Shown here: positions 1,921 through 60,049 of the stretch, one piece after another | Position numbering within the stretch: the stretch's first letter is position 1 | Layout: each line of letters starts with the position of its first letter | Source: Puniceicoccales bacterium Verruco_02 | GTDB taxonomy: Bacteria > Verrucomicrobiota > Verrucomicrobiia > Opitutales > Oceanipulchritudinaceae | DNA: 64,000 bases | Assembly (NCBI GenBank): GCA_001604585.1 | Contig: LVBW01000032.1 | Coordinates: 1-64,000 of the forward strand | Direction of reading: 5' to 3' | Made by a program: the position numbers and the translations under genes | The notes under the pieces: model-generated | What the model was told of the DNA's origin: nothing | The model's input: only the letters and a program-made list of their open reading frames with translations | Database searches by the model: none

Positions 1921-2412
1921 ATGGACATCGACAAATCGCTGTTCATACGCGGAAACAGGGCGCTCGGGCAGGCACTGGTGCAGAGTGGTCTTCTCTCGCA
2001 GAGTCGCCTTGACGAGGCCAACACCCGCCTTATCGACACAGTGCGCGCCGGAAATCTGCGCGCACAGGGCCTTTTGCCCATATTGACGCATCAGCTAGGT
2101 GCCCTGTCGGAAAATGCCCTGCTCCAGTATCAGGCTCAGGAATGCGGCACAGGCCTCATAGACCTGCACTCCTATGCCATGCGCCAGTTGCCCGGCACAG
2201 ACCCCGCAGCCTGCTGGGCCACCTGGACCCTGCCCATCGACGAGCGCGAAGGGGTGCACTTTCTCGCAAGCGCCTATTACCTAAGCCAACCAGTCCGCGC
2301 CTACTGGGAACAGCTACTGGGTGGGCAGATAGTGTGGTATGCAGCCAGCCAGCAGGTGCTGATAGAGGGAATCGAGCGCTTGGAAAGCCAGACGAAGGGA
2401 GCCTCATCCTGA
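1921..2412 (+). CDS. Hypothetical protein, upstream partner of the response regulator
   Basis: 163-aa ORF; 'LGQALVQSGLLSQSRLDEA' resembles GspE/MshE N-terminal-like segments; stop overlaps next start (TGATG). Confidence 0.65.
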   Translation: MDIDKSLFIRGNRALGQALVQSGLLSQSRLDEANTRLIDTVRAGNLRAQGLLPILTHQLGALSENALLQYQAQECGTGLIDLHSYAMRQLPGTDPAACWATWTLPIDEREGVHFLASAYYLSQPVRAYWEQLLGGQIVWYAASQQVLIEGIERLESQTKGASS

Positions 2413-3713
2413 TGGCACACCGCATCCTGATAGTCGATGACGACCAGATATTCAACAACCTGCTCGCGGACGTGTTCCGTCAGGCAGGTTACGAGGTAAG
2501 CTGCGTCTTCAGCGCGGCACAGGCGCGCGAAATGCTGGCCGGGGGCGGCTTCCACCTTGTGGTGACTGACAACCGGATGCCCACCGAGAACGGCACACAG
2601 CTTGTGCGCCACATCACGCGCGAGCACAAAAATCTGCACGTAGTGATGGTGAGCGGCTACCTGTCCAACGACGACATCCGCCAACTTATACGCGACGGGG
2701 TGGGCGGAGTCTTCATCAAGCCTCTCAACATATTCCAGCTACTAAAGCGCGCGGCCCAACTGCTAGAACATCGCGAAGAAACGCCCAAGGAAAAGACTCA
2801 GGACAAGGAAACGCGCAGTGAAAACCCCGCACAGAAGCTGAAAAGCTTTGCGGGAGCGGGTAGCTCTATGGCGCAAAAGTTCGCAAGACAGATTCTGTCC
2901 CTGCGCTCCTTCAGCAGCAACCTCATAGTGTCCGGGCAAGCCGGATCGGACTTCAAAGCCATCTGCGAAGACCTAGCCGAAGGTCCGGGCGAAACCCTGT
3001 TCATCCTCGACCCCGCTGATCTGGACAAACCGGATGTGCTGGCTTCGCGCCTTGGCGGACTGGCCGGAAACGGCAGGGCGGGCCGCCTGACCATCGCCTT
3101 CCAGCAGCTCGAACAGATCGACGCCAAAAGGGCCGAGGCAATCTTCTCCATAGCCAGAGTGCGCCCCCCATTCGACAACATCGGGCAAGGCACACGCTTC
3201 ATATTCTGCCTGAAGGAAAACCTCGACCAGATGTTCGACGCCGGACGCATCGACGAGAACTTGTACCTGTTCATGGGCACAATGGAGCTGAAGCTGCCCT
3301 CGCTTGACGAACTGCGCGAAGACCTGCCTGGAATCGCCAGAGCCATTCTCGAACAAAGACAGCCCTCGTGCAGACTCGACGAAGAGGGCGCCGCCCTTCT
3401 TGCCAGCATGAACTGGCCAGGAGACATGGCCCAACTATGCAAGGTGCTGGCCGATGCGGCGGCATTCTGCGGCGGGCAGTCGATAGGTGCCGACCTGCTA
3501 AGAGATGCCCGCGACGGGCTTCTTTCCAACCCTGTCCTTGAACCCGAGGCAAGCTCCGGCGGACTGCGCGAACACCTCGTGCGCTGCCGCGACAGCTACG
3601 TCAAGGCCATGAGCATCATTCTGGACGGCGACGCCACAGCCGCCCAGCTAGCGCTGGAAATCGGCAAAGAGTCGCTACAGCGGATACTCGCCAGCGGACA
3701 GGACCAGCCCTGA
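2412..3713 (+). CDS. Response regulator (REC) with degenerate NtrC/AAA-like C-terminal region
   Basis: MAHRILIVDDDQIFNNLLADVFRQAGYEV...VVTDNRMPTENG REC motifs; later region resembles a sigma54-activator ATPase without Walker A. Confidence 0.85.
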   Translation: MAHRILIVDDDQIFNNLLADVFRQAGYEVSCVFSAAQAREMLAGGGFHLVVTDNRMPTENGTQLVRHITREHKNLHVVMVSGYLSNDDIRQLIRDGVGGVFIKPLNIFQLLKRAAQLLEHREETPKEKTQDKETRSENPAQKLKSFAGAGSSMAQKFARQILSLRSFSSNLIVSGQAGSDFKAICEDLAEGPGETLFILDPADLDKPDVLASRLGGLAGNGRAGRLTIAFQQLEQIDAKRAEAIFSIARVRPPFDNIGQGTRFIFCLKENLDQMFDAGRIDENLYLFMGTMELKLPSLDELREDLPGIARAILEQRQPSCRLDEEGAALLASMNWPGDMAQLCKVLADAAAFCGGQSIGADLLRDARDGLLSNPVLEPEASSGGLREHLVRCRDSYVKAMSIILDGDATAAQLALEIGKESLQRILASGQDQP

Positions 3714-3868
3714 TGCAAGGCCCCCCCACGAACGCAAAGCGGTAATACATGCCCATGCAGGATAGATTCACTTTGCATCTGAAACCCCTGCGCCCGGCTC
3801 TTGTTGTTTGACTTGGGCAAGCTTTGCGCTGAAACTCCCAAACTTTTCCGCCAGCCCGACACAACGCG

Positions 3869-4558
3869 ATGAACACCCCCGAAAACGATCCCCGGAAGGC
3901 CCAGCCCGTCACAGTCATACGCAACAGCGGCGTAGATAGCGCCCTTCCCCCGGACGCAGACCCGGAAGAGCGTTTCAACCAGTTCTGGCGCGAGAACGGA
4001 ACCTCCATCTTTTCCTCCATCGCCATCGGCGCGGCCATTGTGATTGGGGTGCAGATCTGGCGCTACATCGAGGCCCAGGCGGAAAAGCGCACCCAAGAGA
4101 GCTATCTGGCCGCCGGAAGCAGCGCCGAGGCCCTCGTCAGCTTCGCTAGCGAAAAGGGCAAGCACCCTCTGGCCGGAGCCTCATACATGCAGATAGCAAC
4201 TGCCGAGTTTGCCCGTGGCGAGTACATACAGGCTGCCGAGCACTACGCGCTGGCGGCTGGCATATTGAGCGGCTCCGCCTTTGCCGAACGCGCGCGCCTT
4301 GGCGTAGCTATGAGCGAACTAATGTCCGGCAAGGTCGATAGCGGGCTGGAAAGCCTGCGCGCCATAATGGATAACCCAGACTACACCGAGCTTACCCGCG
4401 CCGAGGCCGCCTACAACCTGGCCCTCTACCACTACAAGGCAGGCAACGATGCCGCCGTGGCGGAAATACTCGCCATCACCGACACTTTTTCGGAAGGCAA
4501 CAACTACGCCACCGCGGCGGGCTACCTGCGCAATCGCCTGCCCAGCGCGGGCCAGTAG
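3869..4558 (+). CDS. Membrane-anchored TPR-like protein
   Basis: N-terminal TM 'SIFSSIAIGAAIVIGVQIWRYIEA' followed by helical TPR-like repeats (YfgM-like layout). Confidence 0.7.
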   Translation: MNTPENDPRKAQPVTVIRNSGVDSALPPDADPEERFNQFWRENGTSIFSSIAIGAAIVIGVQIWRYIEAQAEKRTQESYLAAGSSAEALVSFASEKGKHPLAGASYMQIATAEFARGEYIQAAEHYALAAGILSGSAFAERARLGVAMSELMSGKVDSGLESLRAIMDNPDYTELTRAEAAYNLALYHYKAGNDAAVAEILAITDTFSEGNNYATAAGYLRNRLPSAGQ

Positions 4559-4601
4559 CCGCTTCACACAAGGCCCTTCCACGGGCCTTATATGCTTAGC
4601 T

Positions 4602-6047
4602 ATGAGCGAAACGGTACCCGCCAAGGCCACGCCCGGCGCGCGCGAGCACATCGAGCGCGTGCGCGACTTTTACGAGCATAACACGCAGAGGGCGGGCCTT
4701 TTCGGGCGCACATACCGTCGCCAGCTCGCCCATTATTATCGCCACATAATTCCAGCCGAGGCCAGCGCGCTGGAAATAGGCTGCGGACGCGGCGGCCTGC
4801 TCGAACTATTGCCAAACCGCGACATATGCGGCGTGGACATCGCCCCGTCCCGTGTAGAAGAGGCGCGAAAGAGACTGCCACACGGAGAGTTCCACGTAAT
4901 GGCTGGCGAGGAGCTGAAGCTGGGGCGCAAGTTCGACTACATAATACTGTCCGACACGGTGAACGAAGCCGGAGACGTGCAGGCCGTGCTGGAAGCTGCC
5001 CTGACAGCGGCCCGCGAAGACACGCGTCTTGTCCTCAACTTCTACAACACCCTGTGGAAACCCATGCTCTCGCTTGGCACGGCGCTAGGCCTGCGCGTGC
5101 ACCATCCACAGCAAAGCTGGCTCTCGGGCGCGGACATTGCCAACCTTTTGCACCTATCAGGCTGGGAGCTTGTCCGGCGCGAAGGACGCATCCTCTGCCC
5201 TGCCCCAATCCCCTTCATCGCCAAGCTTGCTAATCGCCTATCCCCTCTCCTGCCCTGGGCAGGGCTTACAGTGTTCGAGGTGGCCCGCCCCGCACGCCAA
5301 GACCCATCAAGACGGCCCGGCCCCAGCGTCAGCGTCATAGTTCCAGCCCGCAACGAAGCTGGAAACATAGCCGACGCAGTGGCGCGCACCCCGCTGATGG
5401 GCGAATGGACGGAGCTGATATTCGTGGAGGGCGGCTCCAGCGACGACACCTGGGAGCGCATACAGGCCGTGGCAGGCACTGTCTCGCCCAAGGGAGTGCG
5501 TATCGTCCCGGCCCTGCGCCAAAAGGGACGCGGCAAGGGCGACGCTGTCCGCGAAGGTTTTGCCGCGGCAAAGGGCGACATAGTGATGATACTCGATGCC
5601 GACCTCACGGTTCCTCCCGAGGAACTAGCCAAGTTCCATGAGGCACTTGCCACCGGACGGGGCGAGTTTGTCAACGGCGTACGCCTAGTTTACCCGATGG
5701 AGGACAAGGCCATGCGCTTCCTAAACATGTGCGCGAACAAGTTCTTCGGCATTGCCTTCACCTGGCTGCTCTCCCAGCACGTGAAGGACACCCTCTGCGG
5801 AACCAAGGTCCTGTACAGGCGCGACTACGAGAAAATCGCCGCCAACAGGGCCTACTTTGGCGACTTCGACCCCTTCGGGGACTTCGACCTGCTCTTTGGC
5901 GCAGCACGCCTGAACATGAAGATAGTGGACCTGCCCATTCGCTACAAAAACCGCTGCTACGGAACGACAAACATAAGCCGATTCCGCCACGGGCTGATAC
6001 TATTCCGCATGATGCTGCACGCGGCGATGAAGCTGAAATTCATCTAG
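4602..6047 (+). CDS. Bifunctional class I SAM-dependent methyltransferase / glycosyltransferase family 2
   Basis: ALEIGCGRGGLLELLP (MTase motif I), then SVSVIVPARNEAGNIADAV...MILDADLTVPPEEL (GT2); start at 4602. Confidence 0.88.
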   Translation: MSETVPAKATPGAREHIERVRDFYEHNTQRAGLFGRTYRRQLAHYYRHIIPAEASALEIGCGRGGLLELLPNRDICGVDIAPSRVEEARKRLPHGEFHVMAGEELKLGRKFDYIILSDTVNEAGDVQAVLEAALTAAREDTRLVLNFYNTLWKPMLSLGTALGLRVHHPQQSWLSGADIANLLHLSGWELVRREGRILCPAPIPFIAKLANRLSPLLPWAGLTVFEVARPARQDPSRRPGPSVSVIVPARNEAGNIADAVARTPLMGEWTELIFVEGGSSDDTWERIQAVAGTVSPKGVRIVPALRQKGRGKGDAVREGFAAAKGDIVMILDADLTVPPEELAKFHEALATGRGEFVNGVRLVYPMEDKAMRFLNMCANKFFGIAFTWLLSQHVKDTLCGTKVLYRRDYEKIAANRAYFGDFDPFGDFDLLFGAARLNMKIVDLPIRYKNRCYGTTNISRFRHGLILFRMMLHAAMKLKFI

Positions 6048-26478: not shown

Positions 26479-27528
26479 CTACACAAATTGGCCGGTGCCG
26501 CCCGATATTGACAGCCCAGGCTGTGTGTTGACAGCTGCCGGGGTGGCGGCGCTTTTTACCACCGCCTCCTGTAAGTTCTTGAGCTTTTGCCCTTCGATTC
26601 GCCGCCCGTTCTTTGCGTAGGCAAGTATCAACGCCCCAAGAACCGGCGTGGCCCTTGCGTGGACCATGCTGGCGAAGGGGAGCTGCGCGTGCAGCGCCTC
26701 AAGTAGCCTGTCCTCAAAAGTCTGCCCGCTGTGGGTTATGCCGCCCACGGCCGCCACATGCGGGCGCTCCATGTCCAGCTCCCTCGCCACGGTGGCCACC
26801 ATCAGGGCCAGCTCGTCAAAGCCTTTCTTCAATATGGCGTTGGCGCAGGCGTCGCCAGCCTCGGCCACCTCGAAAATTATCGGCGCAAGCTCCGCCACCC
26901 TCTCGCGCGAGAAGTGGGGATTGTAAATGATGTTTGGCATCTCGTGCAGAGTCATGATGCGCAGAAAGTTGCGCACTCGCTCTTCCAGCATAGTCGTCGG
27001 CCCTCTGCCATCGCAGCTCCTTGCCGCGGCCCGCATCGCCTGATACCCCAGCCAGTAGCCGCTGCCGGGATCGTCGATAAACCAGCCCCAGCCACCTGCC
27101 TGCCGGGTGCGCCCGCGTTCATCGCGCCCGAGGGCCGCAGAGCCTGTACCGACAACGAGCACGACACCCGGCTCTCCCCCCAGTGCGGCGGCGTGCGCCA
27201 CGTCGAGGTCGTTGCCAAGGTGCAGCTGCGCCCCTCCAAGGCCAAGTGCGGCGAGCGGTTCCCGGAGAGCCTCTTCCACTGCCTTGCGGTCGGGCGAGGT
27301 GCGCACCCCTGCAAGGCCAGCGTAGATGCAAAGCTCCTGCGGCGGCTGCCCCATGTCGCGAAACGCCCTCTGGAGGGCCTCGCATACGCTGAAGGCCGTG
27401 CCTTCGAGGCCCACCGCCTTGGGATTGGACGCGCCCGAGGCTCCGTAGCCGACAAAGCCCCCGTTCTCATCCACAATCACCGCGCGGGTGCGCGTCCCGC
27501 CGCCGTCAACGCCACAGTAACAAGTCAT
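26479..27528 (-). CDS. BadF/BadG-type ATPase (GlcNAc kinase-like)
   Basis: CGVDGGGTRTRAVIVDENGGFVGYGASGASNP; VVLVVGTGSAALGRDERG. Confidence 0.88.
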   Translation of the reverse strand: MTCYCGVDGGGTRTRAVIVDENGGFVGYGASGASNPKAVGLEGTAFSVCEALQRAFRDMGQPPQELCIYAGLAGVRTSPDRKAVEEALREPLAALGLGGAQLHLGNDLDVAHAAALGGEPGVVLVVGTGSAALGRDERGRTRQAGGWGWFIDDPGSGYWLGYQAMRAAARSCDGRGPTTMLEERVRNFLRIMTLHEMPNIIYNPHFSRERVAELAPIIFEVAEAGDACANAILKKGFDELALMVATVARELDMERPHVAAVGGITHSGQTFEDRLLEALHAQLPFASMVHARATPVLGALILAYAKNGRRIEGQKLKNLQEAVVKSAATPAAVNTQPGLSISGGTGQFV

Positions 27529-27641
27529 CGCCAAGAGAGTATTGGCAAGCAAAGGCCCCGTGGCAATCTCTTGCGCTGGCGTCTTTGCACACTCCCCACC
27601 CGCTTCCATCTACCGTGTTGCACTTGGGCGGCATAAATGCG

Positions 27642-28085
27642 ATGATGGTATTTGTGGACGCCGCACGGCTCAAAATCGAAACGACGGTGCTTGAGAAGAC
27701 CTTTGCCGGGGCCTTCCGTCTTGGCGGCGAACCCGGAGATACGGCACGGCTGGAAGTGGATGTCACCGTGCCCGGCGGCGGGCGCTACACCCTGCTCCTT
27801 ACCTGCGCGGCGGACTATCCCTCGTCCATGCCGGACGCCTTTCTTATTAAACCCCTCGTTCTTCGCGACTATCACGGGCAGGAACTGCTGGCCATATCGC
27901 CCTCGCACCAAATGCACCTGCTCCGTCCCGAAGGGCGCTTCCTGCGGCTCTGCCATTACAAGCCCGAGAACTGGCACCCCAACGTCACCCTGTACAAAGT
28001 GGTGCTAAAATGCCTGATATGGCTAGTAGCCTACGAGAATCACCTTCAGAGTGGCCGCCCAATAACCGACTATCTAGGCAAGTGA
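27642..28085 (+). CDS. E2-like (UBC-fold) ubiquitin-conjugating enzyme homolog
   Basis: TLLLTCAADYPSSMPDAFLIKP...SPSHQMHLLRPEGRFLRLCHYKPENWHPNVTLYKVVLKCLIWLVAYENHLQSGRPITDYLGK; Cys104 in 'RLCHY' then 'WHPNVTL...WLVAYENHL' is the bacterial E2 active-site/C-terminal pattern. Confidence 0.78.
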   Translation: MMVFVDAARLKIETTVLEKTFAGAFRLGGEPGDTARLEVDVTVPGGGRYTLLLTCAADYPSSMPDAFLIKPLVLRDYHGQELLAISPSHQMHLLRPEGRFLRLCHYKPENWHPNVTLYKVVLKCLIWLVAYENHLQSGRPITDYLGK

Positions 28086-28104
28086 CATCACTTGTCATTA
28101 CCCC

Positions 28105-28287
28105 ATGAGAGAGCTACAATCGGCAGTCATTGGCGGGGAACTTCTCATGCGCGAGCGTGGGGAAAGGCCCATGCACAAGCTTGTCTTCGACCCCGGCAGC
28201 GGAGAGCTGCGCCTGCGCCCGCGAGACGAAATGCCGCTGGCCGAGGCTACGCCCGTTGACCAGATTGCGAGCGACGGCTTCGCATAG
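28105..28287 (+). CDS. 60-aa hypothetical protein between E2-like and E1-like genes
   Basis: MRELQSAVIGGELLMRERGERPMHKLVFDPGSGELRLRPRDEMPLAEATPVDQIASDGFA; tightly spaced in the same orientation. Confidence 0.5.
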   Translation: MRELQSAVIGGELLMRERGERPMHKLVFDPGSGELRLRPRDEMPLAEATPVDQIASDGFA

Positions 28288-28310
28288 ACACCCACCCGCA
28301 CCCACGCACG

Positions 28311-29525
28311 ATGCCTGCCCAAGTCAGCGTATTGAAGGCCCAGCTCGAAGAGCTGCGCGAGAGCGCCCGACGCCGCCACCTGCGCGTTGTCGAGGGCGTC
28401 GCCTTTGGCCTGCCCGGCGAGGACGTGTTCCACTGCTTCAGCACCCGCCCGTCATATCAGCCCCACGGCAGCCCCCTGCCCTGCTTCTTTGTGATGCAGG
28501 AAGGCGGGCGCCTGCCAACGGAGCTGCCAAGGACTCTGGCCAGCCTGCGCGCTGCGGACAAGTCGCCCGTTGTAATCGTGCCCTTCAACGGTCTTGACGC
28601 ACCCACAGCCTTCATTGGCACGGCGATGAGCGAAAGGGCCACCCTGCACCTTCTCTGCCCGCTGGACGATGCCGCTTCGCGCAGCCGGGGCCTCTTGGAA
28701 AGCGGAATGCTCGCCACCCGCCGCGTGCTCATTGCGGGCCTTGGCAGCTTCGGCTCCACGGCTGCGGTCGAACTGGCCAAGGCCGGGGTAGGCTCCTTCG
28801 CCCTGCTGGACATGGACAGGCTGGAGCCGGGCAACGTGACCCGGCACGAGTGCGGGCTGGCGGACGTAGGGCGCTGGAAAACCCTCGCCGTGCGCGATGC
28901 CATACTGGCGCGCAACCCTGCGGCCAAGGTGGACACTTTCGAGCTGGACCTTAACACCCGCCTCGACTTGGTCTGCGAAGAAGCCCGCCGGAGCGACCTA
29001 GTCATCTGCGTCACAGATCAGGCCCGCAGCCGCTTCAACTGCAACGTGGCGGCCCTATCCGCCGCCCGCCCAGCCCTGTTTGCCCGCGCTATCACCCGCG
29101 CCACCGGAGGGGACGTGTTCCGTATGCGCCCCGGCGGCCCATGCCTATCATGCCTGTTCAATCAGGGCCTGAGCATGGGAGAGGACGAGGTGGCAAGCGA
29201 GCGCGCTGCCGCCGAACGCACGCCGGACTATGCCCCGCCGGGCAGCGCAGTGCAGGCGCAGCCGGGCCTTGCCTGCGACATAGCCCCGCTTGTCCAGATG
29301 CTTGTCAAACTGGCCCTTGTAGAGCTGGCCCCCCGCGGCATTGGCCACTGGGAGCGCCTACGCGAAGACCTCGCAGCGCCATTCTACATATGGGCGAACA
29401 GGCGAGACGACATCTACCGCGACTGGCAAGCGATGGACTACCTGTACAACCGCAATTCCATCATGCGCTGGTACGGGGTTCGCGTGCCAAGGGACAGTAG
29501 CTGCATGAGCTGCTCGATGAGCTAG
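28311..29525 (+). CDS. ThiF/E1-like adenylyltransferase
   Basis: VLIAGLGSFGSTAAVELAKAGVGSFALLDMDRLEPGNVTRHECGLADVGRWKTLAVRDAILARNPAAKV; CxxC pairs CLSC and CMSC. Confidence 0.92.
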   Translation: MPAQVSVLKAQLEELRESARRRHLRVVEGVAFGLPGEDVFHCFSTRPSYQPHGSPLPCFFVMQEGGRLPTELPRTLASLRAADKSPVVIVPFNGLDAPTAFIGTAMSERATLHLLCPLDDAASRSRGLLESGMLATRRVLIAGLGSFGSTAAVELAKAGVGSFALLDMDRLEPGNVTRHECGLADVGRWKTLAVRDAILARNPAAKVDTFELDLNTRLDLVCEEARRSDLVICVTDQARSRFNCNVAALSAARPALFARAITRATGGDVFRMRPGGPCLSCLFNQGLSMGEDEVASERAAAERTPDYAPPGSAVQAQPGLACDIAPLVQMLVKLALVELAPRGIGHWERLREDLAAPFYIWANRRDDIYRDWQAMDYLYNRNSIMRWYGVRVPRDSSCMSCSMS

Positions 29526-29590: not shown

Positions 29591-30721
29591 CTATTCGGGT
29601 AGGCTGCCAAGACGGACCGGCTGCGCCTCAGGGTGGCTCACCCTTGCAATCGTTCCCCCACCCCTGCGGCGCTCAAGGCGGATCTCCCCGCCAAGCATGC
29701 GTATGCCGTGCCGGGCCACGGTGAGGCCCATTCCGCGCCCGACTGCGGTCTTGCCCGATATGAAAGGCTCGAAGGCGTGGTCCTCGATCTCCGGGTCTAG
29801 CCCCTGACCACGATCCTGCACGAGCAGTTCCAAAGATCCCTCCCCCTGGGCGGGAATAACTTCCAGCTCTATGCTCCTGTCGGCTGAGGAGGCGTTGTCC
29901 GGGTAGCTCTCCCATGCGTTGATGAGCAGACGGCCCAACACCTCCTCAAAAGTCTCGATATTGGTCTCCAGATACATGCCGGGGGCCGGGTTGATGACGC
30001 GCACCTGTGCAGGCACTTTGTAGTCGCCAATGAAGCGACGTATCGCCCCCTCCACAGCCTCGTCCAAAGACACGCGCACAAAGTGCGGCTTCTCGTCGGT
30101 GGCGATGGTGGAGAGCTGCTGGACAATCTTCACCATGCGCTTCACGGCCTTGTCGATAAGCTCGCTGGAGCGGCGCACGAGGGCCGGGTTGTCCGAGGCC
30201 GTGCGCAGAAGGTCCACATAGCCCACCACCACGCCCAGCAGGTTGTTCAGGTTGTGGGCGATGCCCTGCGTAATGGCACCGACGGCGGCGGACTGGCGAG
30301 CATCGGCGAGGCGGTTTTGCAAGTCGAGGTTGCGGCGGTGGTTCTCGCGAATGCGCAGCTGCGTGTTCACGCGGGCCATCGTCTCGTCTAGGTCGATGGG
30401 CTTTGTAATGTAGTCCGAGCCGCCCGCGTTAAGCCCCGCCAGCTTGTTCTCGCGGCTGTCCTTGGCGGTGATGAATATTACGGGCAGATCCTCGGTGCCG
30501 GGCATCTCGCGCAGACGGCGGCACACCTCCATCCCGTCCATGACAGGCATCATAACATCCAGAAGTACCAGTGAAGGCTTGGACTCGGCAATGCGCTCCA
30601 GAGCCTCCACGCCGCTGCTTGCAGTGACAACACACATCCCTTCCTTCTCCAGCTTGCGCTGAAGAATTCTCACATTCACAGGCTGGTCATCGACGACCAG
30701 AATTGTGGGGGGCTTGTTCAC
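29591..30721 (-). CDS. Hybrid response regulator / sensor histidine kinase
   Basis: PTILVVDDQPVNVRILQRKLEKEG...LVLLDVMMPVMDG; GAITQGIAHNLNNLLGVVVGYVDLL; GLDPEIEDHAFEPFISGKTAVGRGMGLTVARHGIRMLGG. Confidence 0.93.
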   Translation of the reverse strand: MNKPPTILVVDDQPVNVRILQRKLEKEGMCVVTASSGVEALERIAESKPSLVLLDVMMPVMDGMEVCRRLREMPGTEDLPVIFITAKDSRENKLAGLNAGGSDYITKPIDLDETMARVNTQLRIRENHRRNLDLQNRLADARQSAAVGAITQGIAHNLNNLLGVVVGYVDLLRTASDNPALVRRSSELIDKAVKRMVKIVQQLSTIATDEKPHFVRVSLDEAVEGAIRRFIGDYKVPAQVRVINPAPGMYLETNIETFEEVLGRLLINAWESYPDNASSADRSIELEVIPAQGEGSLELLVQDRGQGLDPEIEDHAFEPFISGKTAVGRGMGLTVARHGIRMLGGEIRLERRRGGGTIARVSHPEAQPVRLGSLPE

Positions 30722-58643: not shown

Positions 58644-58877
58644 CTAGCCGCCCGCCACTATGCGGACTATCTCCAGACGGTCGCCATCGCAGAGAACAAT
58701 ACTGCGGGCCTCTGCCGGAGACAGGGCCTCGCCATTGCGCTCCACAACCACCCTGCCCGGGGCCTGCCCGCGCTGCGCAAGAAAGGCCGTGAGAGTCGTG
58801 GCAAAGGCTACCTCGAACCACTCGCCGTTGGCACGTATGCGGATATTACCCGGCGCTGGTGCTGCACTGTCCGGCAT
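58644..58877 (-). CDS. thiS: Sulfur carrier protein ThiS
   Basis: IRANGEWFEVAFATTLTAFLAQRGQAPGRVVVERNGEALSPAEARSIVLCDGDRLEIVRIVAGG, C-terminal GG. Confidence 0.93.
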   Translation of the reverse strand: MPDSAAPAPGNIRIRANGEWFEVAFATTLTAFLAQRGQAPGRVVVERNGEALSPAEARSIVLCDGDRLEIVRIVAGG

Positions 58878-60049
58878 CACGAGGCAAGCGCCTCCCCGTC
58901 GCGGCTGACAAAGGAACGGTCGAAGTCCTTCCAAACCGGCTCGTAACCCTTTGAGCGTATCATGGCCGCAATCTCGGCAGGGCCGCGCTCGTCGGCAACG
59001 TGGAACTGCTCGCCCGGCTGCGGGGTCTTCGGCCTCCAGTTACGTTCGTCAAAGTTGCTGTACCCGCCCGGCTCGGTGCTCGCACCCGCGCTCATATGCG
59101 TGGCCCCGGTCAGCACCATGCCATCGCGCAGGGCGGGAGCCTCGCGTGTGGTGACTGACATATCCACCCGCGGGAACATCATGCGAAAGGCACACATTAG
59201 CTGCACTGTCTGCCTATCGCTCATTATGTGCTCCGGCCTCGGGCTGAAACCTCCCGCCGCGGGTCTCATGCGCGTGAGGCCCACGGCAAGCTCCGCCTTC
59301 CAGCACTCCCGCTGAAGATGCCGGGCGTGCGCGGCCACGGCGATGGCCTCGTAGCGCCAGTTGTAGAGGCCGTACAAGGCACTGATGCCAAGGCGGCGCA
59401 TCCCGGCCTTGTAGGCCCTCTCCGGGGTGTCCAGACGGAAGGCAAAGTTCTTCTTCGGCCCTGCCGTGTGCATCTGGGCATAGGTAGCCAGGTGATAGCT
59501 CTCCTGATACACCACTATGCCCTCGGCCCCGGCCTCCACCATGGGGATGTATTGCTCGATTTTCGCAGGCCCAAGCTCGATGGAAATGCTCGGCATCAGG
59601 GGCAGACAGCGTCGAATGGCCTCCTGCACGTAGCCGTTACTGACGTATTTGGGATGCTCGCCCGCAACTATCAGCAAGGAGCGAAAGCCCTGCCTGTGCA
59701 ACATGCCCACCTCGTGCAGAAGTTGCTCCATCGAGATGGTAAGGCGAGGAATGATGTTGTTGCGCGAGAATCCGCAGTATTTGCAGATATTCACGCACTC
59801 GTTGGACAGGTATATGGGCGCGAAAAGGTGAATTGTGCGGCCGAAGTTACGCTGGGTAAGAGCCTGCGAAATGCGGGCCATGTGCTCCAGATACGGAGCG
59901 GCCGCCGCCGAGATGAGCGCGGCAAAGTCGTCCAGACTCTCCGCCGCGCCCCGTGCCAGAACACGTTCCACATCGCGGGCCGTTGCTGCCGCCGAGCGAG
60001 CCTCCAGCTCCGCAATGGGCAGAGAGGGCAGAATTTCGGAAAACATCAT
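58877..60049 (-). CDS. thiH: 2-iminoacetate synthase ThiH
   Basis: Radical SAM CKYCGF; YLSNECVNICKYCGFSRNN; THMSAGASTEPGGY. Confidence 0.95.
   Translation of the reverse strand: MMFSEILPSLPIAELEARSAAATARDVERVLARGAAESLDDFAALISAAAAPYLEHMARISQALTQRNFGRTIHLFAPIYLSNECVNICKYCGFSRNNIIPRLTISMEQLLHEVGMLHRQGFRSLLIVAGEHPKYVSNGYVQEAIRRCLPLMPSISIELGPAKIEQYIPMVEAGAEGIVVYQESYHLATYAQMHTAGPKKNFAFRLDTPERAYKAGMRRLGISALYGLYNWRYEAIAVAAHARHLQRECWKAELAVGLTRMRPAAGGFSPRPEHIMSDRQTVQLMCAFRMMFPRVDMSVTTREAPALRDGMVLTGATHMSAGASTEPGGYSNFDERNWRPKTPQPGEQFHVADERGPAEIAAMIRSKGYEPVWKDFDRSFVSRDGEALAS

Follow-up and report, generated by a model that had tools for sequence, protein, structure and literature searches.

The usual view is that ubiquitin-type enzymes act on modifiers of the beta-grasp fold. 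The Pup and UBact systems use a PafA ligase, and their modifier ends in Gly-Gly-Gln/Glu. Bacterial operons encoding E1, E2 and JAB proteins were described by Iyer et al. (2006; PMC1779556), with a sporadic spread and frequent mobility. In their types 6a-6c the E2 is fused to the E1, type 6e carries a polyUbl, and type 6d has separate E2 and E1 genes, a conserved His C-terminal to the Cys, a beta-grasp Ub-like gene and a helical protein (PMC1779556). In type II CBASS, Cap2 conjugates the cyclase, which has a non-ubiquitin fold, via a terminal Gly or Ala (PMC10097602). In B. cereus, the CBASS cyclase is attached by its terminal peptide KPGGFA to PspA lysines, and Cap3 detaches it without leaving a scar (PMC11153139). 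A cGAS-cGAS fusion is likewise cut by Cap3, behind the first copy (PMC10097602); this is the activity that would mature extended or E1-fused forms of the 60-aa module described below.

Here we describe a three-gene cassette in Puniceicoccales bacterium Verruco_02, the source genome (a 2.7-Mb draft, 97% complete). The window, meaning the whole stretch of DNA analysed, comprises 64,000 nucleotides of contig LVBW01000032.1. Sequence comparison makes it somewhat probable, in our judgement, that the cassette is a JAB-independent E1-E2 system conjugating a non-ubiquitin modifier of 60 residues. A literature search, with preprints and most subscription papers outside its scope, found no published description of the cassette.

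The cassette and its relation to described systems

A preliminary description of this DNA had reported three ORFs on the same strand, bounded by a divergent BadF kinase gene and a convergent kinase/regulator gene. We recovered the ORFs with identical boundaries, separated by gaps of 19 and 23 bp, and found both flanking genes in place. The features are as follows.

26479..27609, minus strand: BadF-type ATPase/kinase gene, divergent flank (PF01869, E 1.6e-37); likely start nearer 27528
27642..28085, plus strand: E2-like (UBC-fold) protein, 147 aa; candidate catalytic Cys104, then invariant His105
28105..28287, plus strand: gene of the 60-aa candidate modifier; hairpin-like motif LVFDPGSGELRL and C-terminal tail SDGFA immediately before the stop
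28276..28287, plus strand: GFA codons and stop (TAG) of the 60-aa gene; C-terminus kept exactly in the JAB-less genus
28311..29525, plus strand: ThiF/E1-like activating enzyme, 404 aa (PF00899, profile matches, ten-sequence alignment)
29591..30721, minus strand: response regulator-histidine kinase gene, convergent flank (PF00072, PF00512, PF02518)

The cassette is present in all three genomes examined from the genus, where it is chromosomal, and was found with the same gene order in eight more loci from other verrucomicrobial genomes, a Bradyrhizobium plasmid and a viral contig. The three genes are thus co-conserved, and none of the three findings that the preliminary description had named as refuting it (a first protein lacking the UBC fold, homologues lacking the Cys, genes that are not conserved together) was made.

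By analogy, the cassette would work most like CBASS Cap2 provided with a dedicated short substrate. It shares with type II CBASS an E2, a ThiF-type E1, a JAB (in relatives) and a candidate substrate ending in Gly/Ala (DGFA), and the Bradyrhizobium relative has a cyclase and Cap4 next to its cassette. In contrast to Cap2, an E2-E1 fusion, the cassette has separate E2 and E1 genes, and outside the zinc knuckle its E1 lacks conserved cysteines. The candidate substrate also differs from that of CBASS in being a dedicated 60-aa protein, and the source cassette contains no cyclase, effector or JAB. As in Bil (BilABCD), the E1, the E2 and the relatives' JAB are encoded separately. However, the cassette has no tandem beta-grasp BilA, no Cys domain is evident in the E1, and the E2 lacks the Bil motif CEHH (C, +6 E, +8 H, +13 H) when the ten-homologue alignment is set against the spacing in PMC11354881; the relatives' JAB profile likewise detects no BilC-type JAB in the source genus. 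In the three genomes of the genus the E2, the 60-aa protein and the E1 make up a conserved JAB-less cassette, which, as previously suggested, differs from four-gene Bil loci.

The separate E2 and E1 and the conserved His C-terminal to the Cys are reminiscent of Iyer type 6d, but the beta-grasp Ub-like gene and the helical protein are both missing, and none of types 6a-6e has a 60-aa module. Likeness to Pup/UBact lies in a non-ubiquitin candidate modifier of ~60 residues and in the ClpB-type AAA+ ATPase adjoining some of the cassette's relatives, whereas the cassette differs in its E1/E2 pair, its GFA end and the lack of a PafA-type ligase. The PRTRC NCBIfam models matched none of the three cassette proteins. 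Judged by its sequence, the cassette belongs to the bacterial E1/E2 operons generally; of the features tested that define type II CBASS, Bil, Iyer 6d or PRTRC, only the CBASS Gly/Ala end was found, on the candidate substrate.

Putative activating and conjugating enzymes

The E2-like protein had no significant match in a Pfam search and gave weak profile matches to PADLOC 'E2' (E 0.003) and Prok-E2_E (E 0.2). Its structural model, built on a shallow alignment of three sequences that left out relatives from whole genomes, had UBC topology (pLDDT 66, pTM 0.66). When this model was compared with the PDB using Foldseek, at least 43 of the 50 matches listed were UBC-like domains of E2, UEV or FANCL proteins. 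Their probability was near 1 for the best and their TM about 0.5, and none of the matches listed had an E below 0.001. Cys104-His105 and Trp111 were invariant among the ten homologues aligned. The preliminary description had proposed an E2 pattern with Cys104 as candidate catalytic residue, and the UBC topology of the model, the almost exclusively E2/UEV character of its Foldseek matches and the invariance of the cysteine all agree with it; we judge the predicted UBC fold to be a good assignment, though the model is of medium confidence. The E2 match in one genome (G065) contains two internal stops.

The third protein is a member of the ThiF/E1 superfamily (PF00899, E 1.2e-25), as had been recognised from its ATP site. 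This Rossmann/ATP region spans about residues 134-290 and is preceded by an N-terminal part of ~120 residues; the glycine motif, N175, R178-H179 and D229 are all kept in ten homologues. By profile, the nearest solved structures are MoeB, ThiF, MccB, UBA4, Cap2 and UBA5, and the best PADLOC matches are CBASS E1-E2 proteins. The nearest named record found, from an Opitutales MAG, has an E1 of 73% identity. An AF2 model built from two sequences reached a pLDDT of 38 and was discarded. C278, C281, C398 and C401 are also kept in the ten homologues, spaced CxxC...CxxC as in the zinc site of MoeB/ThiF, and the ten-sequence alignment has no conserved cysteine column beyond these four. Activation of the substrate by the E1 would therefore proceed through adenylation, perhaps with no thioester on the E1 itself.

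All three cassette genes are under purifying selection (dN/dS, three genomes). The original reading of the locus as a conjugation cassette was right about the E1 and E2 enzymes but missed the 60-aa ORF as a conserved family and the best modifier candidate.

The 60-aa module, its tail and the JAB peptidase

The 60-aa ORF is a real gene under purifying selection, with a dN/dS of 0.20-0.23 at a dS near 1 in three genomes. Its product matched no Pfam or NCBIfam model, those of known modifiers included, and a charge-hydropathy test of disorder gave a borderline value. A homologous module sits between E2 and E1 in 11 of the 11 loci found (L039, L040 and L074 from the same family; L041, L048, L056, L057, L058 and L069; L043 on the Bradyrhizobium plasmid; and L051 on the viral contig), and no alternative modifier candidate recurs across them. 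The module forms the N-terminus of the E1 polypeptide in L048 (G154), L043 and L051 and is a separate ORF elsewhere; in G542 and G903 the ORFs overlap. In G903 the module occurs three times before the E1 (L069 7622-8421, minus strand), with two copies within one ORF, which recalls the arrangement of polyubiquitin-type genes.

A hairpin-like motif, LVFDPxTGEL, is common to the modules of both clades. In the nearer clade the tail Asp/Glu-Gly-Phe-Ala is always present, with GFA invariant in 8/8 modules. The second clade (L041/G049, L043/Bradyrhizobium, L051 and L069/G903) keeps the hairpin and lacks GFA at the aligned place. The 60-aa ORF thus represents a separate conserved family and is the strongest candidate for a conjugated modifier. 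It is probably the tag, by analogy with the conjugated B. cereus CBASS cyclase, whose Gly-Phe-Ala tail is the same.

A JAB profile built from three cassette relatives detected no JAB in the three genomes of the genus, whereas all five further genomes searched gave one JAB each. The JAB frames of G516 and G903 each contain one stop, which may be an error in these drafts. In G947 (L074), the closest JAB-bearing relative, the JAB gene lies directly before the E2; in G515 (L057) the contig begins at the E2 and the JAB gene is off the contig. The earlier statement that no JAB or clear Ubl is visible is right for the source genome: in addition to the null result with the relatives' profile, its PF14464 matches are RadC, and a PF02597 search found only ThiS beside ThiH. 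The ThiS and ThiH genes are adjacent at 58644-60049 of the window (minus strand), and the genome yielded no second ThiS-type protein.

The residues that follow GFA vary with the locus. In the JAB-less genus the 60-aa protein stops exactly at the Ala, with TAG in the source genome, TAA in G118 and TGA in G105. In JAB-type loci, GFA is followed by AL (L074), GHE (L056), LRLAA (L057), LQEVA (L058) or the E1 itself (L048). Between L057 (G515) and L058 (G516) the extension differs at 3/5 positions and the preceding body at 5/59 (Fisher p 0.012). This is the pattern expected if a JAB exposes the GFA end and loss of the JAB obliges the gene to end there. We regard it as suggestive and not as proof, since the JAB-less state represents one lineage and one loss event.

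In the mechanism that we propose, the E1 would use ATP to adenylate the C-terminal Ala60 of the DGFA tail. The tail would then pass to Cys104 of the E2, probably straight from the adenylate, given that the only conserved cysteines of the E1 are those of its zinc knuckle, and the E2 would join it to amino or hydroxyl groups of target proteins. The JAB peptidase of relatives would remove whatever follows GFA, or free the module from the E1, and would also take conjugates apart, whilst the JAB-less genus would encode the mature GFA end directly. Adenylation, thioester formation, conjugation, trimming and the nature of the targets are all inferred. Several observations count against the 60-aa protein as modifier: the three E1-fused modules (L048, L043 and L051) would need cutting, GFA is missing in the second clade, the tail/JAB match stems from a single lineage, and the JAB gene is off the contig in G515 and interrupted by a stop in G516 and G903.

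The main rival explanation sees in the 60-aa protein an N-terminal piece of the E1 that has become detached and docks the E2 or the substrate; GFA would be the end of its conserved core, and another, unlinked protein would be the modifier. The fusion of the module to the E1 N-terminus in G154, Bradyrhizobium and L051, the overlapping ORFs of G542 and G903 and the retention of the hairpin in the GFA-less clade would suit such a segment. However, docking leaves unexplained why three different stop codons fall exactly after GFA in the JAB-less genus whilst variable residues follow it elsewhere, why the tail matches that of the conjugated CBASS cyclase, and why G903 has tandem separate copies. The tail/JAB pattern and the tandem copies weaken the view of the 60-aa protein as a mere E1 N-terminus, and we consider docking unlikely, albeit a serious contender.

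We also considered conjugation of the cellular ThiS, which ends in VAGG, with the 60-aa protein as an adaptor. Iyer et al. (2006; PMC1779556) raised this idea for operons without a modifier of their own, and the genome search turned up no ThiS/MoaD-type protein other than ThiS, with its GG end. Its position beside ThiH and the presence of a separate MoeB/ThiF-rhodanese E1 in the genome nevertheless indicate an ordinary ThiS role, making this explanation highly improbable. Least probable of all is that the cassette is what remains of a type II CBASS accessory module after loss of the cyclase, the JAB and the effector, and performs no present conjugation. The CBASS cyclase ending STFGA and the Cap4 beside the Bradyrhizobium relative, and the CBASS E1-E2 proteins that top the PADLOC matches of the E1, point towards such an origin. 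Against it, the source genome has no SMODS match, no cyclase was noticed beside loci other than that of Bradyrhizobium, and purifying selection on all three genes indicates that they are not decaying.

If the 60-aa protein is indeed a dedicated tag, E1-E2 machinery can work independently of the ubiquitin fold, and the cassette would be among the smallest E1/E2 systems known. It may further exemplify a separate class of prokaryotic protein tagging, a generalisation we hold as a tentative possibility that falls short of probable. Such a class would comprise non-beta-grasp modifiers of ~60 residues that end in Gly-Phe-Ala, are matured by JAB or, after its loss, encoded mature, and are served by a stand-alone E1 and E2, with a ClpB-type unfoldase or an adaptor with HEAT repeats linked to them in some lineages; it would combine a Pup-like tag with ubiquitin-type enzymes.

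Mobility and gene neighbourhoods of the relatives

The cassette is patchily distributed, occurring in 4/17 genomes of the family, including all three of the genus, and in 3/390 genomes representing the spread of the phylum. The preliminary suggestion of a cellular rather than mobile system fits the genus, where the cassette is chromosomal in 3/3 genomes, but does not extend to relatives found on a conjugative plasmid, on a viral contig and in an island. The plasmid is that of the Bradyrhizobium relative (L043), in which the cassette adjoins the STFGA-ending CBASS cyclase and Cap4. This cyclase (L043 9936-10811) is annotated from residue about 80, with its N-terminal part upstream in another frame, so that it is frameshifted in the record. 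Searches of viral contigs with the E2, E1 and 60-aa alignments yielded one locus, L051, which has a terminase and a recombinase near the cassette. In phage collections, the matches looked at were ThiF proteins without the cassette. The island, in one relative, also carries a HerA/conjugation-type ATPase. A defence role is plausible for the mobile relatives, and a cellular role is as possible in the source genus.

In three related genomes (L056 9170-11773; L057 2452-5199; L058 4651-7236), the E1 is followed, directly or with short membrane ORFs in between, by a ClpB-type AAA+ ATPase gene, which suggests a link to unfolding or disaggregation. Two other loci have a HEAT-repeat protein directly after the E1 (L040 5139-6986 and L074 5003-6775, both minus strand). 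The hairpin motif of the 60-aa module recurs at the N-termini of these proteins (as LIFDPATGEL and LIFNPETGEL). When ORFs totalling 78,000 residues were screened with the hairpin pattern, only one protein with no connection to the cassette matched; the copy in the HEAT protein is probably meaningful because the pattern is so rare among such ORFs, and it is possibly a docking motif.

A Mesorhizobium plasmid (L060 3808-7523) encodes a 57-aa protein ending LGGEY, an E2, a second E2-like protein, an E1, a JAB, a metallo-beta-lactamase-like protein and a patatin. A plasmid search found no further relatives of the 57-aa gene. This locus would be an analogous small-modifier system, with a tail of GG plus two residues. 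In L057, two short ORFs between the E1 and the ClpB-type gene (about 2061-2500) both begin MALRYNDQTGEFEE; they resemble small membrane proteins and also carry a hairpin-like motif. Upstream of the run of JAB, E2, 60-aa, E1 and ClpB genes in L056, two SPASM radical-SAM proteins and an amidohydrolase are encoded (2142-5931), possibly in one operon with it.
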